IMG/VR virus record: IMGVR_UViG_3300017605_000032
Span: 1-61,703 of that record
Source: a virus
Length of the DNA: 61,703 bases
Reading direction: 5' to 3' (one strand)
Positions 3,801 through 24,816 of the stretch are shown here, one piece after another (position 1 is the first letter of the stretch; the number at the start of each line of letters is the position of its first letter). A model generated the notes under the pieces. That model made no database searches and had not been told where the DNA came from. It was given only the letters and a program-made list of their open reading frames with translations. A program made the position numbers and the translations under genes.

Positions 3801-4230
3801 TACCTGTTCTAGCATACAGTCTAGCACCTCTTACAAAAGAATCATCAGTGTAGTCTTTTAATAGGGTTTCTAATGCTAATAACATAGCATCTATTTCAGC
3901 CTGTGTATAATAAGGAAGAGTAGATGGTAGTGTTTGGCTATATATAATAACTACAAAGTCAGTAGGTTCTAGAGTATCTAGTATTGTTACAGTATTAGGA
4001 GGAGTTAGAGTATATTGACTTTCACTTAAAGGACCAACTCCTTTTACTCCTACTAAAAAAACCTGAGCATAATTTTCACTTGTTGTAAATACTTGAGAGC
4101 CTGTATATTCAAATTCCTCTTTTCTTAAAATCCCTGGAGAAGATTGAAGAGCTGTTAATTGATAACCTATACTTTTTACCTGTTTAATAAGGTTTAATAT
4201 AAGATTGTTATCTTCTTTTGTATTAGACAT
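841..4230 (-). CDS. Large tail fibre protein with repeated GxxLIGTTxDxxxDxLQVNGS-type modules
   Basis: This 1129-residue protein is rich in Ser, Thr, Gly and Asn, with no signal peptide or membrane segment. The N-terminal third has fibre-anchor features (for example ALLKDYTDDSFVRGARLYAR at about 120-140). The middle and C-terminal parts carry repeated beta-structured modules: GNTLIGTTTDDVTNKLQVNG near 711, GNTLLNTIVDNGIDRLQVAG near 823 and VIVGGTTNNGVDIFQVNGS near 977. The phrase YLMADGSVS / YLMANGSVS occurs twice. Such modules are typical of long trimeric tail fibres of Bacteroidota phages. It is the first gene after a 141-base gap with an inverted repeat and a candidate promoter, and is followed by a second fibre gene. 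Role in adsorption is inferred from composition and position. Confidence 0.8.
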   Translation of the reverse strand: MSNTKEDNNLILNLIKQVKSIGYQLTALQSSPGILRKEEFEYTGSQVFTTSENYAQVFLVGVKGVGPLSESQYTLTPPNTVTILDTLEPTDFVVIIYSQTLPSTLPYYTQAEIDAMLLALETLLKDYTDDSFVRGARLYARTGIVDKTDQFKLDVFDANTITIGIVDNALFWDKLFEIDVDPNTAIRSFTELPYPLTELITATGLNTNTDPIVSDGIYVRYLGYDIQGGVVSSPDSFIENSAVVQLGFTTVVKSGSSITFLGGVTPGARNVFSQPILANLNDLDRITVTTATDITVGYNIGTPTLNTNPGVITGISINWRTLTNPTNSSSVDKFNYLGDNIVDFVSIDANFLTDTSAPVIHTLWTDLAEGVAINQSFYNTTTTLRDTLDVGSYSVKRVLVGVRGGIFIQDGEHSTSAAFTTLDIAKANVYTHSFTNAIVPEGLVIEIARIIFKESVTDFSDETQFIIVGTIGGTSSGGSLVSVGDATPTVKGVLKLAGDLSGTADLPTVPGLLTKADDSTVVHLSGTETIVGAKTFSSLVTAAGYKIPLGTASQYLMADGSVSTLSTVTLQSAYNSSTPNPEILTNNVNNALTIRQGSGSDDNTIFQGMNGIGQLKFYVRGNGTLSASSNFSPSYNVDGLFNVNSAPSFISTPGGKSVSFGYLDYGSGQYHPRIGFDTTSKWSMGIVGSGGLDFSIGLGNGITDHLTIKNGGNTLIGTTTDDVTNKLQVNGSTKITGNLIVTGSSNSLIGVGTNSPRISAGFSNITLEGSAGGSVHFRGSGSTELGGIYGSDASGIVVRTTNITSPISLAINDLTKLRISINGNTLLNTIVDNGIDRLQVAGSANINGNYSSAIGSGVLKLTVDDTYTSLAFGSNSVNLNLATIQSYGRLSNNALELGLNPNGGNVLIGGTISYTGTKFLVSGSGLFYGGTADPGDGSPAGTRIGFDTTSQYGFIQSMQTGVANKPLWLNRGASSSSGTVIVGGTTNNGVDIFQVNGSLNANTIKKTGGLATEYLMANGSVSTGPSPSLTTNIQTGTTYTLLSTDNGLQIIFTNAAAITLTIPSGLPSGFNCEVLQRGTGQITFTGSGTTLRYSSFETPTTAEQYSLVGIDNIVGVTEEFHLYGSLTSI

Positions 4231-7300: not shown

Positions 7301-9135
7301 TCCTGTACTTCCTCTTTAGACATAGTTGAATAGTCTAATCCTTTAAGTTCTTTTAATATATTAGCTGCATTATCCAAGAAGTCTTTACCTATATTCACTA
7401 ATGGTTCAAAATCTAATTTCATATGTAAGCTACGAATAGCTTTACTGATTTCATTAAGTTTTATATCCTTAGCAAATTTCTCTTCAGGAGATGTAGGAGT
7501 TTTGTACAATTTCTCATACTGAACTCTTAGCTGATTTAGTAATGAATCTATTTTAGGATTGTCTGTAGATTCTGAATTAAGAGGAACTGGTAATAGATGT
7601 AATTCTGTCTTAGTGATATCATTTAAGTTACCTACTTCTAAAGATGTCATTCTCAAACCTTTCTTCTTATCCTTAAGATCTACAGGATAGTAGTTAGCTA
7701 TGAATGGAACCATTCTAGCCTTTCTAATCTGATTAGGATTAGCACCATAGTTCTGCCATATCTTAGTATAATGCCCCATCTGTTGCTTCCATTCCTTTTG
7801 TTTAAACCAAGGAATATCTTCAGAAGTATTTTTATCTACTGTAGTGAATTTCCAGTCTAGTGTATCTATCTTAAATCCTGTTTTTTCATCAGGTTCTATA
7901 GCTGTAAAGTCTACAGTAGAAGCCAGCATTCCCTTTACTTTAGTATCTACAACTTTTCTCTCTACAATAAACCTAGTTCCAGGTTTGTAAGAATCAATAA
8001 GGTTTTTACAGAATTCTTTTAACACCTTAACTTGTTCCATAGTAAGAGTATTCTTAATAGGAATACTATTAGGAGTACTTAACTTATATCCATCCTTATC
8101 TATAAGATTAGTAGAAATATATTCTTCTATAAATTCATGTCCTTTAGAACCCCACTCTCTTTTAGATTCATCATATATCTTTTCTAACTCTGTTCTATCA
8201 GCAGGATTAAATGGAGATTCAGCTTTTACTTTTTCAGTAACAGATCTTTCTACTTTATTTCCTTGAAAAGTATAGTGTCTTTTATCATTAGGAGTTTCAG
8301 GATTTAACTCCATCTCCTTATCATGATTAATGATAGTATCATACATCTTATCAACAGCCTCATTCTTTTGATAGAATACACCTGTAGAAGTTATTTCACT
8401 AACTGTACCATCAGGATTAAGAACCTTTGTAGCTGCTTTCTCAAAAATATCAATGTTAGTTTTTTTATAGACACCTCTCAGATAATCCATAATAGTATTC
8501 CACCAAGAAGAAATTAGATTTCTTTCAGTTTCTTTCATTAGTTCTGGAAACTGTTCTGAGCCTTCAGATTGATTAATAATAACTTCAGATATCAATTTAT
8601 CCACAGCTTCCTTTTTGATCTTCCTAATGTCTGGTTTACCATTAGATAGTTGATAAGCTTTTAAGTTCTTATAGGTATCAAAGGTTTGTTTATAGATTTT
8701 AAACCTATCTATCTTACTTATTAACTCTGTTATTAACTTTGGATTTGTCTGTTCTAGAATAGCTGTAGCCATGTGTACTACTTCTTCTGTAAGGGCAGTA
8801 TCTTCATGACCTTGAGCAACAGCAATAGTCTTCTGAGTTAAATCAGCTAGTCCATTAATACCACCTACTTTAACTTCAGGGTTTCCTTTAAGATACTCAT
8901 TCAATTCCAACATCTTAATTCCCATCTTCTCTGCTGCTTCCTTAACTCTAATTATAGTTTCAGGAGAAGCCTTAGAAGAAGTTTTAGTAGCTAAGTCTTC
9001 TATAGTAGGAAAGTTATCTAACCCATTTTGTTCTTGCCACAAAGAAACCTTTGCAGCAAGAATTATAGGATTAATATTTGATTTTTCTGATAATGCTTGA
9101 AATTCTAGAGAACTTCTATTTACACAATTTGGCAT
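4372..9135 (-). CDS. Virion cargo-type protein with PD-(D/E)XK (RecB/Cas4-like) nuclease domain
   Basis: This is a 1587-residue protein, starting one base after the stop of the giant polymerase gene. Residues about 325-460 hold a convincing RecB/Cas4-type nuclease core: GHEFIEEYI (H333), VERKVVD (E392), STVDF (D409), IDTLDWKFT (D427, K429) and QQMGHYTKIW (QxxxY, Q452-Y456). These are the H, E, D, DxK and QxxxY elements of that family in the right order. Near the N-terminus, LTEEVVHMATAI (E117-H121) resembles a metallopeptidase helix with the first His replaced. Hydrophobic stretches occur in the middle (AVGLKPLIGAANYMGYNF) and near 1446-1462 (LGLLLGLMGMLLAAKAA), and the rest is mostly helical and charged. 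By position it belongs with proteins that are packaged and ejected with the virion RNA polymerase. Possible roles are host DNA degradation or processing of the entering genome. Packaging and function are inferred; the nuclease motif is seen. Confidence 0.75.
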   Translation of the reverse strand: MPNCVNRSSLEFQALSEKSNINPIILAAKVSLWQEQNGLDNFPTIEDLATKTSSKASPETIIRVKEAAEKMGIKMLELNEYLKGNPEVKVGGINGLADLTQKTIAVAQGHEDTALTEEVVHMATAILEQTNPKLITELISKIDRFKIYKQTFDTYKNLKAYQLSNGKPDIRKIKKEAVDKLISEVIINQSEGSEQFPELMKETERNLISSWWNTIMDYLRGVYKKTNIDIFEKAATKVLNPDGTVSEITSTGVFYQKNEAVDKMYDTIINHDKEMELNPETPNDKRHYTFQGNKVERSVTEKVKAESPFNPADRTELEKIYDESKREWGSKGHEFIEEYISTNLIDKDGYKLSTPNSIPIKNTLTMEQVKVLKEFCKNLIDSYKPGTRFIVERKVVDTKVKGMLASTVDFTAIEPDEKTGFKIDTLDWKFTTVDKNTSEDIPWFKQKEWKQQMGHYTKIWQNYGANPNQIRKARMVPFIANYYPVDLKDKKKGLRMTSLEVGNLNDITKTELHLLPVPLNSESTDNPKIDSLLNQLRVQYEKLYKTPTSPEEKFAKDIKLNEISKAIRSLHMKLDFEPLVNIGKDFLDNAANILKELKGLDYSTMSKEEVQDKLKSLLDYKASATKFSTLDNVYLSQFKRNDLDDNGKKILSELNSISSRTEMMLEYIEKLQNEYVVQLALKENITSPNTKNSILTPEAPISTFEKALIEGSKLSSKIINLASKLIMQTNSLVSIKVSNKANELRKLLVPLEQEAAKQGKKAFDLIGKVSPSGIHLIKRFDKEFWDKMEDAKTTEDKEYLKSIINKDTYNQLAKDYLDRNIDEINKTVFSSDFEKNEGIRQSRIKKLNNSINLDSKEFNGYKSFQFSYLINQSIDEEKFYSKEFREMRKNEAAFKVWEFFTDLNKRAKDMGYLNKQGSSFLPLIEASILQKFSNTESILKESASFAKDLYTLRDNEQNSFSKIDPETGEVRRELPKFFTSTNKDVKQLSTDLNKMGVLWIQALEQFEANKNLEATLDVLHSVEKAKGSLILEGNKVKFDELGNLEVNKTENKNADILRAIMDDALYNIEQDLNSVGNITIASAAGKVIKNEERAQEKVVSIKKGLSTADTLVKALAVGLKPLIGAANYMGYNFQAFINNGDMYTNQEFRRNSAKITAYGVLSTKEKALLDYVLPLNEDVSEIKRRQIARDQGILNYVSEFSFTDVMMATNSFPERLLEWANAKSFLDNTMIKDGNLVNIRQQLKREDSIKKYAKDSNGNLKMSNKERKELESTFNDRVKQLKEKESLIHKVEFKDGEISIPGVSDEELAKFRTKIIEYGRNLSGQMNSDNKAGFRRDTMLNSFMMFKGWIPKQVHVRTMDLKKNPELDSWEYGRGRAFIKTWSKLGFKNILQIRHIVNGTEEGLKILDEMLAEKKEEYYKKTGQELEITEEEFYDVMRTAISNQFKELGLLLGLMGMLLAAKAARPPKDATLAEKNNYKFWMKLVNKTVEEVSFYYNPVSANSMTKGSIIPALGLLDKVARIFDSLADEGYGRITNDQELLDKTHPTKQFLNIIPVGSQIFTEVMPYLTPDLYKEMGGTVTAESRRQ

Positions 9136-9136
9136 A

Positions 9137-12100
9137 TTAGCATTCTTTTATTTTAGTTTTTTCTTCTTCTGATAGAGAATCCCATTCTTCTTTAGATAAT
9201 CCATCTGGTATTGTTTCTTCAGGTGTAACACCTTCCATAATATTCACAATAACATTATCATCTACTTCATTAGGAATCTTAGTGAAATCATTGTCTAGAA
9301 CAGATTCTTGATTTGTAGCATAGAACTCTTGAGCTTTGAATGAATCTCCCCAAGCATTTATTCCTCTATAAACATAGTTAAAATAATCCTTTCCTTTAGA
9401 ATTAGAATAGTGTACTAAAGGTACTCTTTTTCCATCTTCTATAGTATAGACTTTTTTCATCAACATTCTGTTTATGTAAGAATAGTCTCCTGTTTTTCTA
9501 GCTTTAATCTTATCTTCCTTAGTAATATAGTTTTCCCATTGATACACTAAGAAATCACTTCTTCCTGATTGAGAACCTACTTGAACATTTATAACTCTAG
9601 GGATAACACCATCCTTAACAGCTTCTCTTAGGTTCTTATCTACAAAGGCTTCATTCATATTCACATATGGAGCACCTTTTCTAAGTTCTTTTAGGAAAGC
9701 CTTATGTTGAGGAACTATATTAGAATTATTCCAGTTATTTCTTTGGAATACAGCTAAGTTATAATAATCTTCCAAATTAGGAAGAGTTTCTAGAATAGAA
9801 AGAGAAGCGTTATATTCTGCTTTGAAATCTTCATAAGGAAGAAGTTGAGAGAAAGCTATTGGTGAATTTGTTAAACCTGATTGTAAAATAGCCACACTAA
9901 CTAGTTTTTTATAAAGATCTGATTGATTAGCTTTTAAATGATCTCTAAGTTCTTGGAAACCTGAAATAACAATATCTTGATTATAGGCTTTACCATCTTT
10001 AGCAGTTAAAGATAAGTTATCTACTTTACCCTCTTTAGCACCAGCCTCTAATCTTAGAGAGTTTATAATGATGTTAGAATGTAAAGGGTGATTAGTATCT
10101 TTAACTACTTTATTTCTAAAGTCTATAATCTCTCTGGCAGCACTCTTTTTCTTATCTGTTCCTACAAGAATAGCAGCAATATCTTTATTAGCCTTAGTAT
10201 TAGTCTGCATAGCCCAATCAAATAGATCAGCTACAGCTTTCTGGGAAGTCTTAACAAAGTCTCTATCATTCATTTCAGTATAAGGAAATAACACAGCTTC
10301 CATTACATCTCTAACAGATTTTCTTCCTTCAGTCTTATTATCTCTATCAGAAAGAAGGATAGTAGACATTGCATTTCTTACTTTAACAAAGTTATCTTTC
10401 AATACTTTAATAAATGAAGCCTCTGCTAATGTATCTATAGAAGAGATGATAGTGTTTCTACCTTTCTCATACTGTATTTGTTTTTTATAAATCAAATAAG
10501 GGTCATTAAGAGTAGCTGTATCAAAGTTAGATCCTTGTGTTACTAAGAATTGGTGGTTAGCCATTTTAGAATACTTTAGAAACTCTTTTAGGATATACTG
10601 TTGTTGAGCTAATTCTAAATCTCCTTCAATAGTTTTACCTACAGTACTCTCAAGCTCTTTCTCAGAAGGGAGTCCTTTAATATCTATAGCCTTAGATGGT
10701 TTAAATTTAGCTAAAGATTCTTCTATAAGAGGTTCAATGAATAACCAAGAATACCCAGAGTTTTCAACTGAAGCTAAGTAATCCTTAATGATAGGCTGAT
10801 TCATGAAATAAGCTATTGTGTTAATAGGAACTCCTAAATCTATTAAGAATAACCAAGTAGATGTAACATTAGGAGTAGCTCCTAGCTCCATAATCCAAGG
10901 TCCTTTAGAAATATCCACATATCCATCAATGAACATTCCATTCAAATCTGATATATATTCCCCTGCTTTGTTTTTAATCATAGCTAGAGCAGGTCTATCT
11001 ACACCATCAATTTTGATTTTATTATATTTCTGGAAGTTAATATCAGTGTCTTTTGCATATACACTAGACATATTGTTAGCTCCTAATACTTCTCTATCTT
11101 CCATAGGAACATTATTCATGTTATCTACATTAACAAAAGAAGGAGTTCTTTGTCTTTGAGCATGTCCTGTTTGTCCTACAGCAGCAATACCAATAGCATA
11201 TTTACCAGATACAAATGCTTGTCTTAATCCTGACATAAATGATCTACTAAGCATGTTTCCTGGAGAGCTATAGTCAATCTCAGGTCTTCCAAGTAAACTA
11301 TTAATTTTCTTAGCAAGATTACTTAACTGAGAAGCATCATTAGGTTTAACTAGGTTATCGTAGTTTTCAGGACTAGATATAAGAGTTTCTAAAGATTCTA
11401 TATAAGCATTCTCTAGAGATTTCATATACAAGGAATCTACTACAGTTTTCTTAATTCCTTCTTCAGATAGTTCTTCTATAAAGTCTGATAATACATCTTC
11501 TTCAGTAAACACACCTAGGTCTCCAAATATTGCTTCCACAAGTTTTCCCTCTAGTTTACCTTGTCTGAATAAATCTATTTCTTCCTGAAGAGCATCAAAT
11601 TGTTTTTTAGTGAAAAACTCTCCTCTATCAAATCTTGAAGAGAATTCATCTTTAGCTTCTTGACCTATTCCATAGAAAGGAACTATTTGTGGTTTACCAT
11701 TAAAGGATCTATATACATTTTTCAAGTATATAGACAATTTATCAATATCAAAATCCGAACCTGCTTTCTTAACCAGAGCTGAAGGTATAACAACAGAATC
11801 TCCAAAGTCTTTAGGTAAAAATTGTTTAATCTTAAAGACATCTATAGAGTTTTGTTTCTGTGTAGGAATACGAAATCCAACACCACCAAGCACTTTCTGA
11901 CCTTCAGGAGTCTCATTAAGATAGTGTAATAGTTCTTCATCAGTCATATTAGAATCAAACCATCTACCTACCATAACCTCGCATACTCTCTTTCCATCTT
12001 CATTCTTGTAGAATGATAAGATATCAGAAGTAAAGATTTTTTTATCTCCTACATTCTCAGCTTTAACTCTATTAGACTCTAACATAGCAGAAGTAATCTG

Positions 12101-15100
12101 AACTTTCATACCTCCAGAGATCTTAGGGCTAACAACATTCTTATCAGCTATAGAAAATAAGATATTTCTCAATTGTTGATAAACTGGTGTAGCTTCTATA
12201 ATAACAGAATCATTAGCTAAATCAGATAGAGCTTCAACAATGTTATTATTGATATCTCTCTTTAGAACCTCATCTTTTAGAGTGGTTACTAGTTTTGCCT
12301 TATCAGCTATCTTGTATCCTGTAGGAGTTTCTTTGATACCTAGTTTATACAACATAGTTTTATATCCTTCATCAATCTTAGCCTCTAGAAGTCTTTGATT
12401 GTTTTTTATCTCTTTGTATAAACTAGATTTTTCTTTTTCAGTTTCATCTAGGGTATTCCAAGTAGCAAATCTTTCTTCAAAAGAAGCATCTGACATAAAA
12501 TCTACAGGTACACCTGCTTCCATAAAGTCCATTGTAGCTAACTTGGTAATCTGTGTACCTTGTCTTACTAATGGAGTATCTTTAGAAGGAACATCAGACT
12601 GTACAGACACAATAGCAAAAGGGATTCTAGATACTCCTTGAGGAACATTAGGGTTTTTAAGCTGTTGTGCTGTTTGGAAAGGTTCTTTAGAGAAAGAACC
12701 ATCTTCATTATACACAGGACTAATTACTTCAGAACCTACTTTAGATCCAGAAGCATATACAGCATAGTCTACATCCTCTTTCTGCATTTTATTGTACATC
12801 TTGATAGCATTAGAATCAGGGTTGATTTGATGTAATATTCTGAAAGATTGTGGCACAAGAGCAAACTTATGAAGTACAATATCATTGTAGTTTCTACCAT
12901 TAGCTTTGTTACCTGCTGTAATAGGTTTTAAAGGAGTGTAAGTGTTTTTAATACCTGGATTTCCTTTAGCATACAATTCTTTTTCAGCATTAGACATTTC
13001 AAGTCTTTTCACTGCTTTCTCATAAGCAATATCATATCTGTATTGCCTTTCATTAGCATCTGACCAATCTCCTGCTCTCAATCTAAATACTCTATAAGCT
13101 TTTAGAGTGATAATTCCTCCACCATCTGTTTCTTCATATGGTTTATCATATCCTTCATTTTCATTAATACTATTAACATCCTCTATAGTTATAGTTCTAA
13201 AGTGGTCTCTTTGCATATCTGTATACCCTATATCTCTAGCATCTCTATAGTCTTTATTATAAGCATTATGTAGAGAAGCATTAATTAGAGGAGAGCCTGC
13301 TATTAATGGTTGTCTAGGAGAGTTGAAGTTCTTGATACGTTTAAGCTCATCTGAATACTGATAAGGATCTGAATATATAAGCTTATGCATCTCTATATTA
13401 GAAATCATATAGTTTACTGATAGAGCTTTCATAGACACCATTAATGTATCTCTAGAATCAAAATTAGGTAGTCCAATATTATCTAGAGAGATTTGTCCTT
13501 CTTCATTGTATTGAAGAATATTATAGTTTTCCAAAAGACTAATAGTTTTATCAGCATCTTGTTTAATAAATGCTTCTACATCTCTATTAATTACAGCTTC
13601 ATAATCATCATAGATTTTCTCAGCTGTTTTACCTTTTCCTGCTACATCCTTCATAACAGAAGTATATACTTCAGGACTAAGAATGTATTTAAAGAATCTC
13701 AAGTCTTTAGTTTTCTCAGCCTTAATCTTATCTGTTTTTCCAGCAACAGTTCTTTTATCTCTAGCTAAACCAATCTCAGATATAAGATAGTTCTTGAAGA
13801 TTGTATTGTATGCTTTATTAATCACAGCTTCTTTACCTACAAAAGGAGAATCTTTCTCAAACATCTTAACACCCCATTCAATAGAAGCATCTCCAGGAAC
13901 TAAGTTTAGGAATACTCCATTAAGGTTTAGATTTATCTCTTGAATAACTCTTTCTCTATAAGTAAGTTTAGAAGACTCTTTCTTCTTACCATTATTCTCA
14001 TTGATAGTTCCATCTATATAAACTGGTCTGAATAGATTCTCTGTACCTGCTCTTCTAGTTCCTTTATCTGTAAACATCTTTTTCAAGATCTGAGAACCTT
14101 TGGTAAATACATCAGTTTTCAAATAGCTGTATTGAGAAAAAGAAGGGTTTGTCTCTACTTCATTAAGATTTTTAAGCTTAGAAACAACATCATAGAAAGA
14201 ACTAACAATGTTAGTACCTATATAAGTTTGTGTTCTATCTCCATTAATATTAAAGTATGTAGATTCATATTCAGGGTTTTCTAAGAATGCTTTTAGAGTT
14301 CCCATAGAAAATAACCTTCCATCAATATTCAGTGTCTGAGTATTAATCAAAGCTAAATCTTTAACTTTAGAAAGAGATTCAAGCATACCTTCAACATTCT
14401 CTTTGAATAGTTTTATTTGTTCTGGGTCTAAGTTTTTAATATCCTCTTTTGTAAAATCAACCCCTAGGTTCTTCAGGAAGTTAGAATAGGTTTCCAACTT
14501 AGAAGGATCTAGTTTCATTCTTGTTAAAGCTGAAGAAGGATTATATTTACCTGTCTTTTTATTATAATCAAACAATAGAGATTTATCAGATTTAATAGTA
14601 TCAATGATATTATTAATCATATCTCTTTTACTTTGTTTAGCAGCACTGGTAAGAGTACTATCAGAAACAATTATATCTCCTGTAGGAAGAACAAATACTG
14701 TTACAGCATCTGCATTCTGTTTTTTCATAGTCTTCCAGAAAGCAGATATTAATTGAAAGTCATGTTCATCCAATACAGAATAATCTACAGGCTTAAATTC
14801 TCTTATACTACCATCAGCAGAAGATTTAGTTAATCTCTTATACAATGATCTGTAATTAGGATCAGTTAGTGCAATTACTCTAAGTCTATTAAGCATATCA
14901 TCTATGTTAACAGAATCATGTAACCTATTCATAAGAGTAATAAACACTTTACTTCCAGGAATTAATGAGTTACCTCCTATAGAAGTTAGCTTATTAATAT
15001 TGGTTGTTTTACCCTCTTGAACTACAGTTTGTTGTTCTATAAGAGTTCCAAGAAGAATCTTTACAGCACTAGAAGCTTTTCTAAATGAATCTATCTGTCT

Positions 15101-18100
15101 AGCATCACCATAAGAATCATCCTTTCTCTTTTCATCACTAGTAACATTTAAATCATCATTATCATCAAATTGAATATCAAATGCTTTTAAATGGTTTTGG
15201 TGCACTTCAACAACATCTTTCCAGTTTTCAGTAATGCTATTGATTAGTTTTCTGTATCTATTAATTTCAGCTAGAGCAGCATCTTTCTTCTCTTTAGAAG
15301 TAGCAGCTTCTCTTTGCTTATTGTACTCTGAGGCTTTCCATCCCATAAGACCTACAACTTCTTTGTATAGTCTGTTGTACAAATCTTTCTTGTTTTCTGG
15401 TACAACATTAAATAGACCTTTATTATCTTTTAGAGCATCTCTTACAGTAGCAAAAGTCATATGCTCTATAATTTCATTTAATTGAACTATGGGCACACCT
15501 GCTACTCTATATTCAGCCATAGGACCAGCTTCTATCTCTTCTATATCTGTTATACCTCTATTAGCATAAGATAGTTTAGATTGATAAGGATTGTATTTAG
15601 CATAGTAACCATTACCTACTCTTTCGAATAATCTATTAGTGTTGTATGCAGCATCTTTACTTATAAAGAAGTGTTTAATAAAAGCAATTAACTCATCAAA
15701 CATTCTTCTTATTAGAGATTTAGGTTTAGCATTTCCTATTAGAATATGATCTCTAAATTCTTCAGCTAATTGTTCTTTAATCTGGTGTTGATTAGCTTGT
15801 TTATAAGGAACAATTTTACCTGTCTCTCTATCCTGAAAAACACCTTCTCTAGATTTAAACTCTTTATATATCTTAGTTCTTTCTTTTACAGGAGTAAACA
15901 TCTTCCATATAGCCTCAAACACCTCATGGTAGGCTGTACCTACTTCAGCATTCTCATATACATAGATAGCTCCATCCTGAAGCATACCCCAAGCTTGTCT
16001 ACCATTGGTAGCTTTAATGATATTCTTAACTCTATAGAAAGGAATATTAGGGAAAGATTGTTTAACAAATTTCTCTACTTCATCCCACTTCTCTTTAGTG
16101 ATATCAAATTTAGATTCTTCTTGTACAGCAATTCTATAGTTTTCATTATCAGGAGCTGTAAAATCTAAGTTCTTTAACCAATCATCAAGGTCTTCTACTT
16201 CTTGATCTTCTACTTCTTCAGTAGTTTCTTCAGTAGGTGTAACTGTAGGAGTAGTTGTAGTCATAATTACTTCTATCTCCTCATCTTCCTCCTGTTCTTC
16301 TTCCTCTTTGATTTCCTCAAAATCATCTTCAACTACTTCTTCTTTCTCCAACTCAGCTCTAATCATAGGACCAAGTTTAGCCATTACACTATTAACAACA
16401 AAGTTTGCATCCTTAGAATCACTGTATTTTAGAGATTTACCTGTAGCTGCATTTGTAGCGCCAGTTAATTCTTCTAAAGCACTAGTCATTTCTGTATCAT
16501 CTTCCCATTTAATAACTTTAGTGTTCCATAATCCTATATTACTAGTGTCTGTAATAGCATCTCTGTCTAGAGTATATTCAAAATCTACTCCTCCCCATTT
16601 AAGAGTATTTAGAGTATGACCATCCATTACAATAGAAGAAGCTTGTTTAGCTAATAAGTCTTTGATAATAGGGATTAGTTTTTGTCTTATAGACCCCTCT
16701 ACAATAGCATTATCCTTAGTATTTGCAATATCTAGGTTCTTACCTGTTTTTTTATTAATAAGGTTTGCTACATCCTCATAAGTAGAATTAAGTCTAAACT
16801 CTATAGCATCCCATATATCATCATCATTAGTGATATCTGATATATCATTTCTATCTATAAGATATTCAAAAGGAGTTTCTAATAGTTCTACTGTATTGAA
16901 TGTCTTACCATCCATTACAACCTCTCCAGGTTTAGCTTTTCTAACTTGAGTAGGTTTTTGTGTAGGTTTCTTTACAGGCTCTTCTGTAACTTCCTCTTCT
17001 TGAGGAACATTGATTTCATCAGCCTCATTAGTTAATGTGAAATAAACTGCTTTTCTGTTTTTATCTTCTTTCCCTAATAGAGGTCTAACATTAGTAGTAA
17101 GAGGAAGATCATTAATATCTCTCTTATCTACAGGTTTACCTTCACTTTTATTATTAGGTTGAGAAGGAGATAACAAGAATGTTTGATAGTTCTGCCATTC
17201 TCTAGTTATAGGTAATCCTGCATTATCTATTCCTATGATTTCAAAATAAGGAGTATTCCATCTAGAATCTTCTTTATTACTATTTACCAAAGAGGCATTA
17301 GTATTGAAGTATAGATTAGACAATAGTTTCTTAATAACAATTTGATCTCTTTGTAAAGCAGAAGGAGTATAGTCTACACTATAACCCATTCCTGAGATAA
17401 ATAGTTTAGTTACAGATTTACCTTGTTCATTAGTAGCATAATCAAACCAAATATTATTATATCCTGGTTTATCCTTTAGATTACCATCTTGGTCTTTAGC
17501 AGTACCCCAATAAGCCACACTTCTTAACCATGTAAAGAATCTTTGTGTTTCCTCTGTTTTCAATGTTTTATGTTCTACAGCATTCTTAGCTGTTTGTACC
17601 ATAACATCATAAATAAGATCTACTTCTCTTTCATTGAACTTTCTATTATCTAAAGGAACAAGACCATTATCAGTTCTTAAGAACACCTTACCAGCAGCAT
17701 TATCAAATGTAGAAGTACCATTAGAGAGTGTATCACTAATAGCTACTTGTACTACAGGAGTGATCTCTAAATCTTCATCACCTATTAATCCTGATTTCTC
17801 TACAGGAATTCTAGAGTTATAATCTCTTTTTTCTTTTCCTTCAGTATCAGTATATGTTACATACTCTAGGATACCAAAAGAAGCTCTCACATCTTGGTAG
17901 TCTCCTAGACTATCTTTTTCTAATTGTGTATCTCTCCATCCTTTATAGATACTAGATAATCTTTCTACTTCATCTTTAGGTGTAGTTTCTCTAAACATAG
18001 ACTCTTTACCATTTCCATAGTCAGCTTGTAGAGTTTCTAAAGGAAACACTTGGTAAATTACATTGTCTAATGTAGGATTCTCTAACACATCTCCAAACTC

Positions 18101-21100
18101 ATCTACTAATACAGGACCATCAGCAGTCTCTTTAACAAAGACTAAAGCAATAGTTGTATCAGGATTTACTCCTGGAATAGCTTCTTTAGTAGTTGGATCT
18201 GTAGCTAAGAATTTAGTTAAGCCTTTTAATCCTAGTTGTGCTTCTGTTTTAGAAGTTACAACCATTCCTTTAATATCCTCATTATTAGGAATCTTAGGAA
18301 ATCTTACACCAAATCTATCTGCTCTTTGAACAAACTCCTTATCAGTAGCAGGTACAATAGTAGATGTTACCAGAGTGATATTATCTTTCTTACTGGCAGG
18401 TTCATAATCTCTAGCTACAGGAACATTCTGTACAGAGTTATCATTAACACCTATGAACTCCTCTTTAAGGGTTTCATTAAGTTGTTGTTCTTGTTCTTCT
18501 CTCTTCTGTGTTTTCCAATCATTAGAGATTTGTCTGAATTTATCTAGGATAACATCATGAGCTCTTAATTGTTTCTCTAGTTCTTTTAGTTCTGTAGAAA
18601 CAATATCCATGTGTTCTTTAAGATCTGTAATCTTATTCTCATTGAGAGTGATTTCATTATCCTCTACATAAGCTAGATAATCTTCTGTTTGTTTGAAATC
18701 TTCTTTATAGTTAGGTCTATCTCTTAGGAATAATGGAGTTTCTCTTAAGAAATCTACCCAAGGTTGTCCATTAGGAGATGGAACACCTTCATATTTTTTA
18801 CCAAAAGCTTCCAATACACCTCTAAGCATAGATACAGCAGAGTCAATAGCTTTTTCTAGAGATGTGATAAGTTTGGTTATAGTAGTCATAGCTCTATTAT
18901 TATCTGTAATAGCCTCTACTAAAAGCATTCTATCAAATCTCAATTGTTCCATAAGATCTTTCATAGGAACAGGAAGGTCTTCCAATTCATCTACAAAGTT
19001 ATCTATGTACTGTATGTTGTATTCTAGTTCTTCTTTTTCAGTCTGTAGTAACTCTACCTCTTGTTGTAGTTGCTCTACTGCTCTAGATAATTCCATAGCA
19101 GTTTTCAAAGCATCAGAAGCAGCTTTTTTAAACTTAAAGAATTTCTTAACCCTCTTATCAGATTCAGATTGAACTATCTCTTTAGAAATTTTATCTAATT
19201 CTTGCTTCTTGTTTTCAATCTGCTTAGTCTTTTGTTCTATAAGCTTATTAGTTTTCTCAACTCTTTGAACCATATCATCTGATAGAGAAGCTAGAATTTC
19301 AAATCTTTGATTAATTCTTCTTTCAATATTAGGGTCTTTCTCAGCAACAAACTCTTTAGTAGCTTCTTCTTGGGCAATAGTAAGCTCACCTATTTTATTA
19401 ATAATAGGTTCTTTAAAGTCTTTTTGAGCCTTAAACATATAGTTCATGGCTTCCATTACTTTAATCTTACCATTCTTATCTCTATAGACAAAATCTAACT
19501 TACGTTTATCTTTAGTGTTGTATCTAAGTCTTCCTGTAACAGGTTTACCATCTGCACCTTTAATAAGCTTATTAGTGAAGATAGAATTCTGGTGTTCATG
19601 GAAGAACTTAAATTTTCTATTAGTAAGTAATTCAGAAGCTTTAGTTAGAGAGTAGTCTTCTAACTTTTCTGGAGTTACATCTTTAATAACACCATTAGAT
19701 TGTTTTATTTTAAAAGATCCATCTTCATTAACCCCAATAACAGTTAGTCTAGGTTGTCTATAAACTTCTTTACCATTAGCATTGTGATATACTACTTTAC
19801 CAAGAACATATTCTGTTCCTAGTTCTATATCTCTATCTCCATTTTTAGTTCTAATAGTGATGGTTTCCTTAGGAGTAGTATCTTCAGGAAGTTCTCCTTC
19901 TTCAGTAACAGTTTTTGTAGAATCAGCTTCTTCTTGCTCTATTTCTTGATTATCTTTAGGATTGTTTTTGATATTAGTATAGTCCTGAAGGTAAGAATCT
20001 CTCTTAAGAGCCATTCTAGCTATATCTTCTACTTGTCCTGCAAGAGTTACTTTCTCATCCTCTATAACTTTTAGAGGTTTAATATAAGTATCAACAATGT
20101 TATTGATCTTATCATCTACCTCAGATAACTCTCCACTAACAACTTCATTAATGAAATCATCTACAGACATACCTAATCCTGCCAAACTAGCAGATACTTC
20201 AGGTATTCTCTTATCATAATCAGCTACTTTAGAGGCTGCATAAACCATTTTATCCATCACAGCTGAAGAATATATAGGTTTACCTTCTTCATCTATCTGG
20301 CTACCATATCTAAGGTTTAGAGATTGATAAAGTGATTTAACATTATTAGCTGTTTGTTCTAGAGAGTTTATTCTTTTAAGATAAGATTCTTGGGTATCAT
20401 CTACTAATGCTTTACCCTCTGCAATAAGTTGTGAGAATCCATCAGTTGAAGAAGCTAATTTTCTATAATCCTCTATCTCTTGTTTAACAAGATCAAATCT
20501 TCCAAACTTAATTCTAGGGGAAAGATAGTTTACTATATAATCCATTTCAGCATCTTTACTCTCAGATACTTTACCCTCTTTTAGATATTGTTCTCTTTCT
20601 TCTTGTATAGATACTCCCCTATTGACAGCATCAAATGTTTCCTTAGAGAAATCAGAAAGTCTATTTTTATTAAAGCTTTCTACAGCTTCTACAGTATTTC
20701 TTTTAATTTCTTGTCCTTCTCTATAATTACCTCTGGCAGTCATTATACTTCCAGATAAACCTCCAGTAATAATACTTTCCATTCCTTCATTAGAACCTAG
20801 AGTATCTCTTACACCTTTTACAAGGCTATCAAATATATCTCCTGACTTACCATTATATTTTTTATTAAAGTAATCTTCTGTACCTTTAGAAATAGCAAAC
20901 TGTGCACCTTCCTCAAATCCTTCTGATATAGAAAATAGATAAGGTCTTACAGTGTTGATTCCTTTAAGTATTTTACTCTTACCTTCTTTAGCTACAAATT
21001 TTCCCCCTTCTTCTACAATCTCTGCTGTTTCTCTAGCCAATCCATTAATCATCCCTTTTTCTGCTTTATAAGTAGAACCTAGAATTTTAGGGAATTGAAT

Positions 21101-22171
21101 ATAGTTAGTAGCAGATAATAGAGCAGCATTAAGAGCAAATGAACTATTACCTACTGAATCAGCAAGTCTATTGATATTAGCTAGAGCTTCTCCTTTAGGT
21201 TCTTCTCCTCCGTTTAAATCTTTGTATTCCTGAATCTTATTGTTTCTAAAATCATTTAAGTTCTGGTAAGCCTCAAATGAAGCTTCTCCTAGTGTACCAA
21301 GTCCAGCTACTACAGCTCTTCCTGCAGGATTAAGAACATTATAGCTTCCAATAAATTTATCAGATAGTGATTTTACTTTACCAAAAGTAGATGTAGAGTT
21401 AATAGCTGTAGCTAATCCTTCTTCTGTAGCAGCTAAAGCTTCTGCTGCTTTACCCATAGAGAATAATCTTGCAGTTAAAGGAATAGATCTAAGTCCTAGG
21501 GTATAGGCATTACCTGCTAGCATAGCTCCTGCAGCAAATCCTAAGTTCTTAACAATACCATCCCAAAGAAAGTTACCTGTAAATAGTTTATCAGGAGAAT
21601 ACCAGTTAGCATTCTTTTCTACATCTGTGTAATAGTTAGGAAGTAAATCTTCTGCTTTTTTATTTATTTCATCTAATGCTCTAGTAAAGTCATTATCATA
21701 GAATGAAGCAGCTCTACCTGTTGCTGCCATTTGTCCTACACCATTAAGCATACCTATTGTTCCTTCAAGAAAGGTAGTTCCTGTAAGCAATAATCCTTTA
21801 CCTACACCTGAAACCATCTTAGACCCAAACCCTTGAGTTTGTCCATAAGCATCTTCATTGTTATAATCTCCAGGCATGAAATTCTGATATCTTTGAGAAG
21901 ATACTTCATCAATAGACCTCATAATAGAACCTCCTTTTAACTTACCTGAAGTTTGAGGACCACTAAAAATATAGTTCTCTAGAGATTGTAAAGGGTCTAC
22001 TTTTATATCATGAGGTTCTCCACCTAAATCAGGAAGAGGAGTTTCTAAACCTTTAAAGGGTGTATTAGGTATAGTAGTAGGGGTATCCTGTGGAATATAC
22101 CCTCCAAATTGTTGATCTAATGCAAACTGATTTAATAAAGGTTCTCCGTTGTTATTAATTGGATCTGGCAT
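9137..22171 (-). CDS. Giant virion RNA polymerase polypeptide (crAss-like, DFDID motif)
   Basis: This single 4344-residue frame is the largest gene in the window. Near the C-terminal third, RIPTQKQNSIDVFKIKQFLP followed by VKKAGSDFDIDKLSIY (D3473, D3475, D3477) matches the catalytic Mg-binding loop of the crAss-like virion polymerase, related to two-barrel RNA polymerases. Other regions: Gly/Ala-rich hydrophobic segments at about 115-152, 202-235 and 282-300; a coiled coil at about 920-1060; a duplicated domain at about 1749-1945; an acidic Glu-rich linker at about 1935-2000; and a zincin-like segment near 2080 (AYHEVFEAIW) with a downstream EQLAEEFRDH, where the second His of HExxH is Glu. 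In studied crAss-like phages this enzyme is packaged and transcribes early genes. The start overlaps the preceding stop by one base (TAATG). At over 4300 residues it is about twice the length I recall for the characterised phi14:2 enzyme, suggesting fusion with other ejected proteins. Confidence 0.9.
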   Translation of the reverse strand: MPDPINNNGEPLLNQFALDQQFGGYIPQDTPTTIPNTPFKGLETPLPDLGGEPHDIKVDPLQSLENYIFSGPQTSGKLKGGSIMRSIDEVSSQRYQNFMPGDYNNEDAYGQTQGFGSKMVSGVGKGLLLTGTTFLEGTIGMLNGVGQMAATGRAASFYDNDFTRALDEINKKAEDLLPNYYTDVEKNANWYSPDKLFTGNFLWDGIVKNLGFAAGAMLAGNAYTLGLRSIPLTARLFSMGKAAEALAATEEGLATAINSTSTFGKVKSLSDKFIGSYNVLNPAGRAVVAGLGTLGEASFEAYQNLNDFRNNKIQEYKDLNGGEEPKGEALANINRLADSVGNSSFALNAALLSATNYIQFPKILGSTYKAEKGMINGLARETAEIVEEGGKFVAKEGKSKILKGINTVRPYLFSISEGFEEGAQFAISKGTEDYFNKKYNGKSGDIFDSLVKGVRDTLGSNEGMESIITGGLSGSIMTARGNYREGQEIKRNTVEAVESFNKNRLSDFSKETFDAVNRGVSIQEEREQYLKEGKVSESKDAEMDYIVNYLSPRIKFGRFDLVKQEIEDYRKLASSTDGFSQLIAEGKALVDDTQESYLKRINSLEQTANNVKSLYQSLNLRYGSQIDEEGKPIYSSAVMDKMVYAASKVADYDKRIPEVSASLAGLGMSVDDFINEVVSGELSEVDDKINNIVDTYIKPLKVIEDEKVTLAGQVEDIARMALKRDSYLQDYTNIKNNPKDNQEIEQEEADSTKTVTEEGELPEDTTPKETITIRTKNGDRDIELGTEYVLGKVVYHNANGKEVYRQPRLTVIGVNEDGSFKIKQSNGVIKDVTPEKLEDYSLTKASELLTNRKFKFFHEHQNSIFTNKLIKGADGKPVTGRLRYNTKDKRKLDFVYRDKNGKIKVMEAMNYMFKAQKDFKEPIINKIGELTIAQEEATKEFVAEKDPNIERRINQRFEILASLSDDMVQRVEKTNKLIEQKTKQIENKKQELDKISKEIVQSESDKRVKKFFKFKKAASDALKTAMELSRAVEQLQQEVELLQTEKEELEYNIQYIDNFVDELEDLPVPMKDLMEQLRFDRMLLVEAITDNNRAMTTITKLITSLEKAIDSAVSMLRGVLEAFGKKYEGVPSPNGQPWVDFLRETPLFLRDRPNYKEDFKQTEDYLAYVEDNEITLNENKITDLKEHMDIVSTELKELEKQLRAHDVILDKFRQISNDWKTQKREEQEQQLNETLKEEFIGVNDNSVQNVPVARDYEPASKKDNITLVTSTIVPATDKEFVQRADRFGVRFPKIPNNEDIKGMVVTSKTEAQLGLKGLTKFLATDPTTKEAIPGVNPDTTIALVFVKETADGPVLVDEFGDVLENPTLDNVIYQVFPLETLQADYGNGKESMFRETTPKDEVERLSSIYKGWRDTQLEKDSLGDYQDVRASFGILEYVTYTDTEGKEKRDYNSRIPVEKSGLIGDEDLEITPVVQVAISDTLSNGTSTFDNAAGKVFLRTDNGLVPLDNRKFNEREVDLIYDVMVQTAKNAVEHKTLKTEETQRFFTWLRSVAYWGTAKDQDGNLKDKPGYNNIWFDYATNEQGKSVTKLFISGMGYSVDYTPSALQRDQIVIKKLLSNLYFNTNASLVNSNKEDSRWNTPYFEIIGIDNAGLPITREWQNYQTFLLSPSQPNNKSEGKPVDKRDINDLPLTTNVRPLLGKEDKNRKAVYFTLTNEADEINVPQEEEVTEEPVKKPTQKPTQVRKAKPGEVVMDGKTFNTVELLETPFEYLIDRNDISDITNDDDIWDAIEFRLNSTYEDVANLINKKTGKNLDIANTKDNAIVEGSIRQKLIPIIKDLLAKQASSIVMDGHTLNTLKWGGVDFEYTLDRDAITDTSNIGLWNTKVIKWEDDTEMTSALEELTGATNAATGKSLKYSDSKDANFVVNSVMAKLGPMIRAELEKEEVVEDDFEEIKEEEEQEEDEEIEVIMTTTTPTVTPTEETTEEVEDQEVEDLDDWLKNLDFTAPDNENYRIAVQEESKFDITKEKWDEVEKFVKQSFPNIPFYRVKNIIKATNGRQAWGMLQDGAIYVYENAEVGTAYHEVFEAIWKMFTPVKERTKIYKEFKSREGVFQDRETGKIVPYKQANQHQIKEQLAEEFRDHILIGNAKPKSLIRRMFDELIAFIKHFFISKDAAYNTNRLFERVGNGYYAKYNPYQSKLSYANRGITDIEEIEAGPMAEYRVAGVPIVQLNEIIEHMTFATVRDALKDNKGLFNVVPENKKDLYNRLYKEVVGLMGWKASEYNKQREAATSKEKKDAALAEINRYRKLINSITENWKDVVEVHQNHLKAFDIQFDDNDDLNVTSDEKRKDDSYGDARQIDSFRKASSAVKILLGTLIEQQTVVQEGKTTNINKLTSIGGNSLIPGSKVFITLMNRLHDSVNIDDMLNRLRVIALTDPNYRSLYKRLTKSSADGSIREFKPVDYSVLDEHDFQLISAFWKTMKKQNADAVTVFVLPTGDIIVSDSTLTSAAKQSKRDMINNIIDTIKSDKSLLFDYNKKTGKYNPSSALTRMKLDPSKLETYSNFLKNLGVDFTKEDIKNLDPEQIKLFKENVEGMLESLSKVKDLALINTQTLNIDGRLFSMGTLKAFLENPEYESTYFNINGDRTQTYIGTNIVSSFYDVVSKLKNLNEVETNPSFSQYSYLKTDVFTKGSQILKKMFTDKGTRRAGTENLFRPVYIDGTINENNGKKKESSKLTYRERVIQEINLNLNGVFLNLVPGDASIEWGVKMFEKDSPFVGKEAVINKAYNTIFKNYLISEIGLARDKRTVAGKTDKIKAEKTKDLRFFKYILSPEVYTSVMKDVAGKGKTAEKIYDDYEAVINRDVEAFIKQDADKTISLLENYNILQYNEEGQISLDNIGLPNFDSRDTLMVSMKALSVNYMISNIEMHKLIYSDPYQYSDELKRIKNFNSPRQPLIAGSPLINASLHNAYNKDYRDARDIGYTDMQRDHFRTITIEDVNSINENEGYDKPYEETDGGGIITLKAYRVFRLRAGDWSDANERQYRYDIAYEKAVKRLEMSNAEKELYAKGNPGIKNTYTPLKPITAGNKANGRNYNDIVLHKFALVPQSFRILHQINPDSNAIKMYNKMQKEDVDYAVYASGSKVGSEVISPVYNEDGSFSKEPFQTAQQLKNPNVPQGVSRIPFAIVSVQSDVPSKDTPLVRQGTQITKLATMDFMEAGVPVDFMSDASFEERFATWNTLDETEKEKSSLYKEIKNNQRLLEAKIDEGYKTMLYKLGIKETPTGYKIADKAKLVTTLKDEVLKRDINNNIVEALSDLANDSVIIEATPVYQQLRNILFSIADKNVVSPKISGGMKVQITSAMLESNRVKAENVGDKKIFTSDILSFYKNEDGKRVCEVMVGRWFDSNMTDEELLHYLNETPEGQKVLGGVGFRIPTQKQNSIDVFKIKQFLPKDFGDSVVIPSALVKKAGSDFDIDKLSIYLKNVYRSFNGKPQIVPFYGIGQEAKDEFSSRFDRGEFFTKKQFDALQEEIDLFRQGKLEGKLVEAIFGDLGVFTEEDVLSDFIEELSEEGIKKTVVDSLYMKSLENAYIESLETLISSPENYDNLVKPNDASQLSNLAKKINSLLGRPEIDYSSPGNMLSRSFMSGLRQAFVSGKYAIGIAAVGQTGHAQRQRTPSFVNVDNMNNVPMEDREVLGANNMSSVYAKDTDINFQKYNKIKIDGVDRPALAMIKNKAGEYISDLNGMFIDGYVDISKGPWIMELGATPNVTSTWLFLIDLGVPINTIAYFMNQPIIKDYLASVENSGYSWLFIEPLIEESLAKFKPSKAIDIKGLPSEKELESTVGKTIEGDLELAQQQYILKEFLKYSKMANHQFLVTQGSNFDTATLNDPYLIYKKQIQYEKGRNTIISSIDTLAEASFIKVLKDNFVKVRNAMSTILLSDRDNKTEGRKSVRDVMEAVLFPYTEMNDRDFVKTSQKAVADLFDWAMQTNTKANKDIAAILVGTDKKKSAAREIIDFRNKVVKDTNHPLHSNIIINSLRLEAGAKEGKVDNLSLTAKDGKAYNQDIVISGFQELRDHLKANQSDLYKKLVSVAILQSGLTNSPIAFSQLLPYEDFKAEYNASLSILETLPNLEDYYNLAVFQRNNWNNSNIVPQHKAFLKELRKGAPYVNMNEAFVDKNLREAVKDGVIPRVINVQVGSQSGRSDFLVYQWENYITKEDKIKARKTGDYSYINRMLMKKVYTIEDGKRVPLVHYSNSKGKDYFNYVYRGINAWGDSFKAQEFYATNQESVLDNDFTKIPNEVDDNVIVNIMEGVTPEETIPDGLSKEEWDSLSEEEKTKIKEC
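16340..16925 (-). repeat. Tandem duplicated ~95-residue domain inside the RNA polymerase polypeptide
   Basis: Two consecutive copies are visible at the protein level. Copy one starts VVMDGKTFNTVELLETPFEY and continues LIDRNDISDITNDDDIW. Copy two starts IVMDGHTLNTLKWGGVDFEY and continues TLDRDAITDTSNIGLWNT. Both end in a helical stretch with IRQKLIPIIKDLLAK or VMAKLGPMIRAELEK. Residues are about 1749-1844 and 1844-1945. The copies are diverged, so the duplication is not recent. The domain is unknown to me. Confidence 0.7.
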
Positions 22172-24816
22172 TATAAAGGTTTTTTAGATATGTTTTTAAT
22201 TTGATTTAGTGTTTGAGAGGTTGCTATCTTACCAGTCAACATTTGGAATATAGAAGAATCATTCAATCCTTGCATTGCTTTAGTAAGTTGATCTTCTGAA
22301 ACCATTCCTGAAGGAGGGTAAGGAATATTCTCAATCCATTTTCCTTTAATAGGGTCATATACATTTAGTCTTATAGTATAACTATTTCCTCCATCAGGAG
22401 TTTCAATATTTCCTGTAACTCCATAAATGCTTGTATTAGGAAAATCTAATTTATTTAAATAAGAGTTTTTAACATTAGTCTGTCCAGGTGCTAATGCTGT
22501 ACTATAACCTCCCATCTTTCTAATCTGTTCTTGATATGGTCTAGCTGCTCTTGCTTCTGGGGAAGCCTCAAACATATTACCAAAAGCTGCTCTTTTCTGT
22601 TCAGGTGTAAGTCTAGCCTTTACTACATTTCCTTTAGAATCTGTAGCTGTCATTTCATACATAGCAGGATTATTAGAAGTACCTTCTACAACTTTAAAGT
22701 TGTATCTAGAATTATTATCTCCAGCAATAAGTCTAGCTGTCTTAGGATCAAACTCAGGAGAATTAGCTAAACCTCCTTTTTGTGTTTCTGATAAATTAGC
22801 AAGACTTGTTAACCTAGAAGCAATAGTAGTTTTCTGAGCAGCACTAGCTGTAGGCATATCATATTCTACACCTTGAGCATATACAAGTCTTTTCTTTAAT
22901 TCATTTGCTGTAATATCATTAATCTGTTTAATCTTATCCTTGTATGGCAGATTAACTCTTTTTCCTACTTCTCTTGCTTTTCCTAAAAGAAAAGATTCTC
23001 CAGAAGTTAAGTTACCATGCATAGATTCTTTCTTATATAATTGGTATAAGTAGTATTCTTTAGGAGATAATTCTTGTTTAGCCTTAGCATCATCAAAAGA
23101 TTTAGGGTTACTAGTACCCATAGGAATTCTAGTGGTTGATGCAGCAGAATAGTATTTAGCATATTTATTAATCTTATTGTTAAAATCAATAAGTTCTTTA
23201 GGAGATAAACTCATCTTACCTGTAGGATAAGTAGCTACTACTGTTTTAATATCAGCAGGAATGTGTTTAGTAATATCACCTACTTGAGCAACTGCTTGCT
23301 TATTAATATTTGTAAGCATTACCATATCAGACTCATTTTGTCTTCTAGCTGCTTCTATTTTATTAAAATGGTAGGCTACTTTAGGATCTACAGAACTAGG
23401 TTTAGCTAACCATGCAGACCTTTGTTGGTCTAACCATGCTTGATCTTTACCCTCTTGTGCTATAAACTGAGCATCTGCTGTTTTAATGTTTCTAGCATTC
23501 TGTTGAACTTCTGCTGTTTTCTTAGCTAAAGTAACTTCAGGAACATCTTTCTGGTCTACAGTAAATGGTGTTCCTCCATATCCCTCTAGTTCTACTTTCT
23601 TAAGTCTGTTTTCTTCTTTCTTTAAAGAAGTATTTTCAGCATCTAAAGCTAATCTTGCTTCTGCTAGTTTTGTATTAATCTGGAAGTGTCTTTCATCTTG
23701 AGAAAGATTAGTTACAAACTTCTTCCAATCCTGTGCTTTATCCTGTCTCCATTTTTCCATATCCTGTGGAGTACCCCCCTCATAGGTTATAGAAGTCTCT
23801 GTGTGAGAAAATGCACTAGCAAAACCATTCATCTGTTTAGAAGTATATAATTTAGCCTTAGCAGCTTCTATATCTCCTGAAGCAAAACTATTAGACACAT
23901 CTTCATATTCACTCTTCATACTATTAACATACTTATCAATAGATGCTATTTGTTGGTTTAATTTTTCTTTTTCAGGAACAGAAGTGGTAGAGCTTAATGC
24001 ATTAGAAAGAACATCTCTCTTCTGTAACATAGCAGATGTGTTATTACCATAAGATTCAGTAACACTAGACATGAATGTTTCTGGGTCTACATTAGCATAA
24101 CTATATCTACCATCAATTTGCATTTGTTTAAAATCTGAAGGTGTTAATCCTACATTAAGAGCTTGTTGAATTTGTTCAGGAGTAACACCTGCAAGTTTAG
24201 TTCTAACATTAGCATCAGCTAATACAAGGTTTCCTTTACTATCTGTAGTAAAAGCATTGTCTGTTATAGTTTCATCTCCTGTTAACCCTTTAATAACCTC
24301 TAAAGCATTCTTTTTCCAGTTAGTGTATTTATCATACTTAGCAGTCATGTCAGCTTTTAAATCATCAGACTGTAACCACTGTGCTGCATCTTTATGAAAA
24401 ACATATTCATTTGAGGGAGAAGACTCCCCTTTCTTTCTAGCTTCTTCCATTAATGATGCTTCTTTTCTATATCTGGCAGAATTAGACACTGCATTAACAA
24501 CATGCCTGTCTTTTGCTATCTGATTTACCATTCCTGAAGTAGAATTTACTAGTTGGAAATCAGAGAAATCACCTGCTGCTACAAATTTTAGATTATTACC
24601 TACCTCATTAAGTTTAGATTGTAAATACTTCTTATCTATATTTCTAATAACATCTAGACCTGCTATATTATCTAAATTAGTTTGTATCTTCTGTATACCT
24701 TCATTATACATTTGTTGTTTCTGCATTCCTACAGAAACCATTGCTTCTACTGGAAGCTGTTGTATATAGGGGTTGAAGTTAGTTAGATACTGTAAATTAT
24801 CTTTATATCCAGCCAT
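22171..24816 (-). CDS. crAss-like internal virion (cargo) protein
   Basis: This 881-residue, mainly helical protein has no signal peptide. Its N-terminus (LTNFNPYIQQLPVEAMVSVG, then QQMYNEGIQKIQTNLDNIAG and FVAAGDFSDFQLVNS) is a pattern I recognise from cargo proteins encoded just upstream of the virion RNA polymerase in crAss-like phages. The centre is rich in charged helices (for example NTSLKKEENRLKKVELEG). It is the first gene after a strong terminator and overlaps the polymerase start by one base, so it shares an operon with the polymerase and nuclease-cargo genes. Likely stored in the capsid or tail and ejected early in infection; this is inferred from family and position. Confidence 0.75.
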   Translation of the reverse strand: MAGYKDNLQYLTNFNPYIQQLPVEAMVSVGMQKQQMYNEGIQKIQTNLDNIAGLDVIRNIDKKYLQSKLNEVGNNLKFVAAGDFSDFQLVNSTSGMVNQIAKDRHVVNAVSNSARYRKEASLMEEARKKGESSPSNEYVFHKDAAQWLQSDDLKADMTAKYDKYTNWKKNALEVIKGLTGDETITDNAFTTDSKGNLVLADANVRTKLAGVTPEQIQQALNVGLTPSDFKQMQIDGRYSYANVDPETFMSSVTESYGNNTSAMLQKRDVLSNALSSTTSVPEKEKLNQQIASIDKYVNSMKSEYEDVSNSFASGDIEAAKAKLYTSKQMNGFASAFSHTETSITYEGGTPQDMEKWRQDKAQDWKKFVTNLSQDERHFQINTKLAEARLALDAENTSLKKEENRLKKVELEGYGGTPFTVDQKDVPEVTLAKKTAEVQQNARNIKTADAQFIAQEGKDQAWLDQQRSAWLAKPSSVDPKVAYHFNKIEAARRQNESDMVMLTNINKQAVAQVGDITKHIPADIKTVVATYPTGKMSLSPKELIDFNNKINKYAKYYSAASTTRIPMGTSNPKSFDDAKAKQELSPKEYYLYQLYKKESMHGNLTSGESFLLGKAREVGKRVNLPYKDKIKQINDITANELKKRLVYAQGVEYDMPTASAAQKTTIASRLTSLANLSETQKGGLANSPEFDPKTARLIAGDNNSRYNFKVVEGTSNNPAMYEMTATDSKGNVVKARLTPEQKRAAFGNMFEASPEARAARPYQEQIRKMGGYSTALAPGQTNVKNSYLNKLDFPNTSIYGVTGNIETPDGGNSYTIRLNVYDPIKGKWIENIPYPPSGMVSEDQLTKAMQGLNDSSIFQMLTGKIATSQTLNQIKNISKKPL

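Follow-up and report, generated by a model that had tools for sequence, protein, structure and literature searches.

A crAss-like virion RNA polymerase fused to a second cargo protein, and a terminal-cysteine pattern that may reflect head-to-tail tying of crassvirus cargo

The virion RNA polymerase (RNAP) of phage phi14:2, gp66 (2180 aa), is encoded next to two other large virion genes, gp67 (1797 aa) and gp65 (1421 aa), and the record of this phage annotates gp65-gp67 on the basis of mass spectrometry (MS). In crAss001, gp47, gp49 and gp50 were found by MS in the virions, which they are expected to leave in a partly unfolded state (PMC10172136). We refer to these modules as A, B and C, in the order of phi14:2 gp67, gp66 and gp65 and of crAss001 gp47, gp50 and gp49; they are the three RNA-polymerase-associated proteins of the virion, thought to enter the host together with the DNA. 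According to a review, crAss-like enzymes reach up to ~6000 aa (PMC10136315), and in p-crAssphage the protein has been annotated as an RNAP fused to a further subunit. The virion RNAPs of N4-like phages are devoid of Cys, which their authors tie to passage through the tail and the periplasm (PMC3715699, PMC3915230). How crassviruses, which abound in the human gut, move a cargo of megadalton size in an ordered way through a narrow tail has yet to be answered.

The DNA analysed here (the window) is a 61.7 kb virus record, in which an open reading frame (ORF) at 9137..22171 on the minus strand, where A, B and C all lie, runs from an ATG start over 4344 codons without an internal stop, as the first-pass annotation had reported. 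Many independently assembled relatives, among them L001 (4711 aa, 48% identity) and L011-L090, have this frame open as well, and we therefore reject an assembly artefact as the source of its length. Searches of the polypeptide (P0001) against Pfam, PHROGs and, as a single sequence, the PDB gave nothing useful, so that profiles were needed. The cassette is accompanied by genes for the terminase large subunit, portal, major head protein and other virion proteins (PHROGs), a statement about gene content and not about taxonomy.

The C-terminal part of the polypeptide, module B (~residues 2231-4344, 9140..15481), is a homologue of phi14:2 gp66. A profile built on the region 2851-4050 from 44 relatives matched ~1000 positions of the gp66 structure (PDB 6vr4) with an E-value of 4.1e-79, the aligned stretch being ~2855-3863 (10583..13609), and in blastp residues 2897-3797 matched gp66, gp50, the B protein of cr128 and others. 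The AlphaFold model of B (pLDDT 86, pTM 0.84) found 6vr4 (E 2.8e-28) and QDE-1 (E 9e-5) as the best folds in Foldseek, and B thus resembles the two-barrel RNAP 6vr4 in both sequence and fold. The catalytic motif DFDxD is present in its conserved context, as DFDID at 3473-3477 (11741..11755) with RIPTQ upstream at 3434-3438 (11858..11872), DFDID being where it had been placed before, and the earlier assignment to the crAss-like virion RNA polymerases is borne out by profile and model alike. N4-like virion RNAPs are T7-like single-subunit RNAPs, unlike module B, and given the best folds such an enzyme was rejected as an identity for B. As a separate observation, in cr108_1, whose chain is likewise A+B, a group I intron (17811-18129 of L005; Rfam RF00028, E 3e-20) interrupts the DFDID codons, and the record annotates two hypothetical proteins; in bajarodcaudo virus 1 the gene for the polymerase is broken at DFD too (15251-16146 of L260), and an endonuclease ORF separates its pieces, suggesting that DFD is a recurrent intron site.

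The N-terminal part, module A (~residues 1-2230, 15482..22171, with an approximate boundary), was recognized by blastp, in which residues 144-764 (the conserved N-terminal part, 19880..21742) and ~2048-2250 match the A proteins of crAss001 (gp47), cr128, Dulem virus 41, where the homologue is named 'structural protein', and an epsilon phage. Its identification as the counterpart of phi14:2 gp67 is based on position together with the survey HMM, by which the N-terminal domain of A falls in a separate ORF of phi14:2. Since the polypeptide has both A-side and B-side matches, it represents A+B, and the next protein (P0002; 4372..9135, 1587 aa), homologous to crAss001 gp49 and to C of cr128 and corresponding by position to phi14:2 gp65, represents C. 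By itself, protein C displays a zincin-like EEVVH near its N-terminus and, by eye, a PD-(D/E)XK-like region, for which a relative gave only a weak match to Pfam PDDEXK_1 (E 0.034). Upstream of A-B-C lies an 881-aa Cys-free protein (22171..24816, minus strand), which by position only occupies the place of phi14:2 gp68 and crAss001 gp46.

Several elements that the first-pass annotation had listed for this chain were found again. The duplicated domain consists of copies at ~1751-1843 (16643..16921) and 1847-1944 (16340..16633) with 33% identity over 99 residues (pairwise E 3e-16), followed by an acidic linker at 1946-2010 (45% D/E; 16142..16336), and heptad-like stretches at 964-1066 (18974..19282) and 1176-1206 fit a coiled coil according to a crude script. 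The membrane-like segments received no support, as no 19-residue Kyte-Doolittle window in the 4344-aa chain exceeds 1.4.

It is virtually certain that the ORF encodes an in-frame fusion of cargo protein A with B, a crAss-like virion RNA polymerase. The proposal of a natural fusion of several ejected proteins is thereby upheld, A and B being separate virion cargo in other crassviruses. The companion statement that the chain is far longer than the known crAss-like enzymes does not hold: YP_010110695.1 of cr1_1 has 4551 aa with the same A+B content, quite apart from the lengths given in the review and the p-crAssphage annotation. A scan with the DFDID region retrieved >500 relatives, of which the best 80, the nearest IMG/VR loci, are nearly all single ORFs of ~3750-5100 aa, and the start-to-DFDID distance falls into two classes (~1200-1900 or 2800-3500). 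Among 251 loci analysed with domain HMMs, A and B share one ORF in 145 (in one of them also with C), and B is joined to C alone in 15. With fused relatives this common, neither length nor fusion is new, and the giant fused polymerase in itself is an already known type. Packaging has been shown for the relatives only, and we infer the virion content of this phage and the order of ejection.

At the border of A and B lies a zincin-like domain (~2043-2200, 15572..16045) with the motif HEVFE at 2082-2086 and a conserved Glu in EQLAEEF. The zincin-like element of the earlier description is thus present, but 'degenerate' is doubtful: in 137 distinct sequences with HExx[H/E] the fifth position is always either E (54%) or H (46%), it switches between the two at least 13 times on the tree, and the downstream Glu is conserved in 97%. 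The restriction of this position to H or E argues for retention of a putative metal-binding site rather than decay. The window itself has HEVFE and not HExxH with a third ligand, and Foldseek of the modelled zincin-like and duplicated region (pLDDT 68) gave no match below E 1.

Such a domain could mean that the polypeptide is a precursor in which the zincin-like domain severs A from B, either while the virion is assembled or on entry. Its exact location at the A/B border, with gene breaks on either side (upstream in L138, L148 and L201, downstream in crAss001), and its conservation in the 137 relatives agree with this, as does L012, a member of the window's own clade, which lost exactly this domain and has its chain split at the same place. 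The domain is also present in 144/155 loci of the A+B/A+B+C class vs 11/68 loci with separate B, but the idea that it tracks fusion had to be dropped, as the independent contrasts are not significant (median p 0.375). Moreover, unfused crAss001, cr128 and Dulem virus 41 hold an intact HExxH, and both the window's HEVFE and the missing fold match speak against cleavage, so that we regard self-processing of this kind as rather improbable.

A different feature of the cargo, absent from the first-pass annotation, is the distribution of its cysteines: the A-B-C proteins are almost Cys-free except within ~10 residues of the ends that face the next module. In a survey of 202 non-redundant loci, with an end Cys defined as one within ~10 residues of the terminus, it occurs at the C-terminus of separate A in 66/68 cases, at the N-terminus of B in 73/73, at the C-terminus of B in 169/174 (53/56 for B and 116/118 for A+B) and at the N-terminus of C in 154/156. 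The outer ends have none (A N-terminus 0/44, C C-terminus 0/144), nor does the C-terminus of B+C or A+B+C chains (0/16); for other ORFs of at least 200 aa in the same loci the counts are 20/204 and 24/204, and the frequency of inner Cys is 0.00025 (A+B) vs 0.0091 per residue. In the window, the last residue of A+B is Cys4344 (TGC, 9140..9142) and the next protein, C, has only two Cys, at position 4 (TGT, 9124..9126) and at 376. In phi14:2, gp67 has a single Cys as its last residue, gp66 has two (positions 3 and -2) and gp65 has one (3); in crAss001, gp47 has one (-3), gp49 one (5), and gp50 has them at 5 and -9 plus one internal. Further named phages that fit are p-crAssphage, frurule, cr4_1, cr50_1, cr118_1, cr130_1 and cr271_1, with only the protein ends being read in cr4_1 and cr130_1, whose in-frame stops (probably an alternative code) were left untreated. 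A large virion protein elsewhere in the window (29888-34891; PHROG virion structural protein) has 30 Cys, vs the Cys-poor cargo.

The terminal Cys covary with gene fusion. With the junction called without reference to Cys, the N-terminal Cys on B agrees with separation of A from B in 173/173 loci; these loci are related by descent, and phylogenetic pairing, with 10 changes in each character, leaves 9 contrasts, all in agreement (9/9, p=0.0039). The cut-off of 2545 residues for 'fused' was chosen after a few borderline loci had been seen, and we therefore also give the test without seven uncertain loci (166/166; 6/6 pairs, p=0.031). A definition of fusion by length only was abandoned, as it is wrong or doubtful for five long B-ORFs that start with Cys (L168, L186, L201, L220, L246); the final calls are domain-based, with length as a fallback. 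Where the break lies upstream of the zincin-like domain (L138, L148, L201), the Cys pair sits at that break, and within 250 residues of the domain a Cys is present in only 2 of 117 fused chains. In crAss001, cr128 and cr85, A is encoded on the strand opposite to B and C with the Cys still in place, so that the Cys is not a local DNA or translation signal and an origin in translational coupling can be discarded; both TGT and TGC occur as terminal Cys codons. As the residues around the C-terminal Cys vary, the Cys itself is what is kept. The one clear exception is L095, whose A lacks a terminal Cys. Most of the other misses trace to a frameshift, a contig end or a Cys lying just beyond the limit (L135, L144, L160, L207, L236), and in L241 the Cys is ~29 residues in. 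crAss002 and the bajarodcaudo C protein fit after correction of the start (internal MSC and MAKSC, respectively); the annotated start of crAss002 gp33 (L264, 15243) is probably too far upstream, its internal MSC fitting the family. In csAssE-Sib the polymerase was not located, and its N-terminus stands outside the Cys comparison; the A protein of epsilon phages has a Cys at its end. The separate B and C of L012 (6476 and 12925) open with similar sequences (MGVCPNIKLPEW, MATCPNINLPEW), which suggests a docking element common to both N-termini.

As the cargo is almost Cys-free, like the N4-like RNAPs, except at the facing ends, and as inter-protein disulfides do exist elsewhere in crAss001 virions, the simplest reading is a head-to-tail link. 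Where modules are separate, the Cys near the C-terminus of the first would bond the Cys near the N-terminus of the second, most likely as a disulfide; where genes are fused, the peptide bond would take over and the Cys pair would be lost. In the window, A and B would be held by fusion and B and C via Cys4344 and Cys4, while the nearly Cys-free interior would keep unwanted disulfides from forming during the unfolded passage of the chain through the tail. Once in the reducing cytoplasm of the host, a disulfide would come apart, whereas in this phage A would remain on the polymerase by its peptide bond; both the inter-module bond and its release are what we infer from the pattern. That A, B and C travel as one string, linked by Cys pairs or fusion, seems to us slightly favoured; the odds look even for the fuller version, in which single Cys at facing ends tie the modules, fusion is interchangeable with them and cytoplasmic reduction frees the polymerase if the bond is a disulfide. 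The overall account, A+B identity plus head-to-tail linkage, we consider reasonably probable.

Against the tie, the cytoplasm is reducing, so that any disulfide has to arise in the virion or the periplasm, and many hosts are anaerobes. The crAss001 study used reduced and non-reduced MS samples, and no cargo disulfide is reported in the text searched (PMC10172136). The other disulfides of crAss001 virions also leave room for a plain fusion of two cargo proteins, itself certain, in which the terminal Cys are unrelated to linking and serve targeting, portal or tail docking or stability, for instance by binding other virion proteins. Yet the Cys occur only at module-facing ends (none at the outer ends) and are gone once modules fuse; so exact a match to fusion is not what one would predict of a docking signal, and we consider this explanation unlikely, if worth keeping in mind. 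Alternatively, the Cys pairs might bind metal or form a non-covalent clasp, which shares the same pairing logic and suits a cytoplasm that is reducing during assembly; however, an end usually has a single Cys and lacks the further conserved ligands, at least two, that Zn would call for, and the neighbouring residues vary, so that we give this possibility little credence. Thioredoxin or TRX-family genes are annotated near the transcription block of four loci (L005, L259, L260, L263) and could bear on thiol chemistry.

In the openly accessible literature searched, which excludes the phi14:2 RNAP paper, we found no mention of terminal-Cys linkage of crassvirus cargo. For a cargo that is indeed linked end to end, the order of delivery and the co-delivery of the polymerase would be readable from sequence; gels of isolates already available (crAss001, phi14:2) could test this. 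For annotation, too, the terminal-cysteine rule is of use, having flagged likely wrong starts (crAss002 gp33, the bajarodcaudo protein) and frameshifted ORFs.

Among the known systems, the N4-like virion RNAPs (Schitoviridae) resemble the present one in being giant, injected and without cysteines (PMC3715699, PMC3915230), there being no Cys in the examined stretch of N4 gp50 nor in gp51 and gp52, and differ in that no terminal Cys was seen. The crAss001 proteins gp47, gp50 and gp49 are a homologous cargo detected in virions by MS (PMC10172136), but they are three proteins, with A on the strand opposite to B and C. In p-crAssphage (Intestiviridae), gp44/gp45 include an annotated giant fused RNAP and a zincin-bearing A protein, but B is joined to C instead of A and the Cys pair lies at the A/B border. 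phi14:2 gp67-gp66-gp65 shares the A-B-C order, homology of B to gp66 (6vr4) over ~1000 residues and the terminal Cys at the B/C border, whereas its A (1797 aa) and B (2180 aa) are two proteins, each bearing a Cys at the end that faces the other, and gp67 has no zincin motif. Finally, YP_010110695.1 (RefSeq, 4551 aa) of cr1_1 (Suoliviridae), from a distant clade and with HEAFH in place of the window's HEVFE, likewise combines A+B, the zincin motif and DFDVD in one chain, with a C-terminal Cys on A+B and an N-terminal Cys on the C protein.
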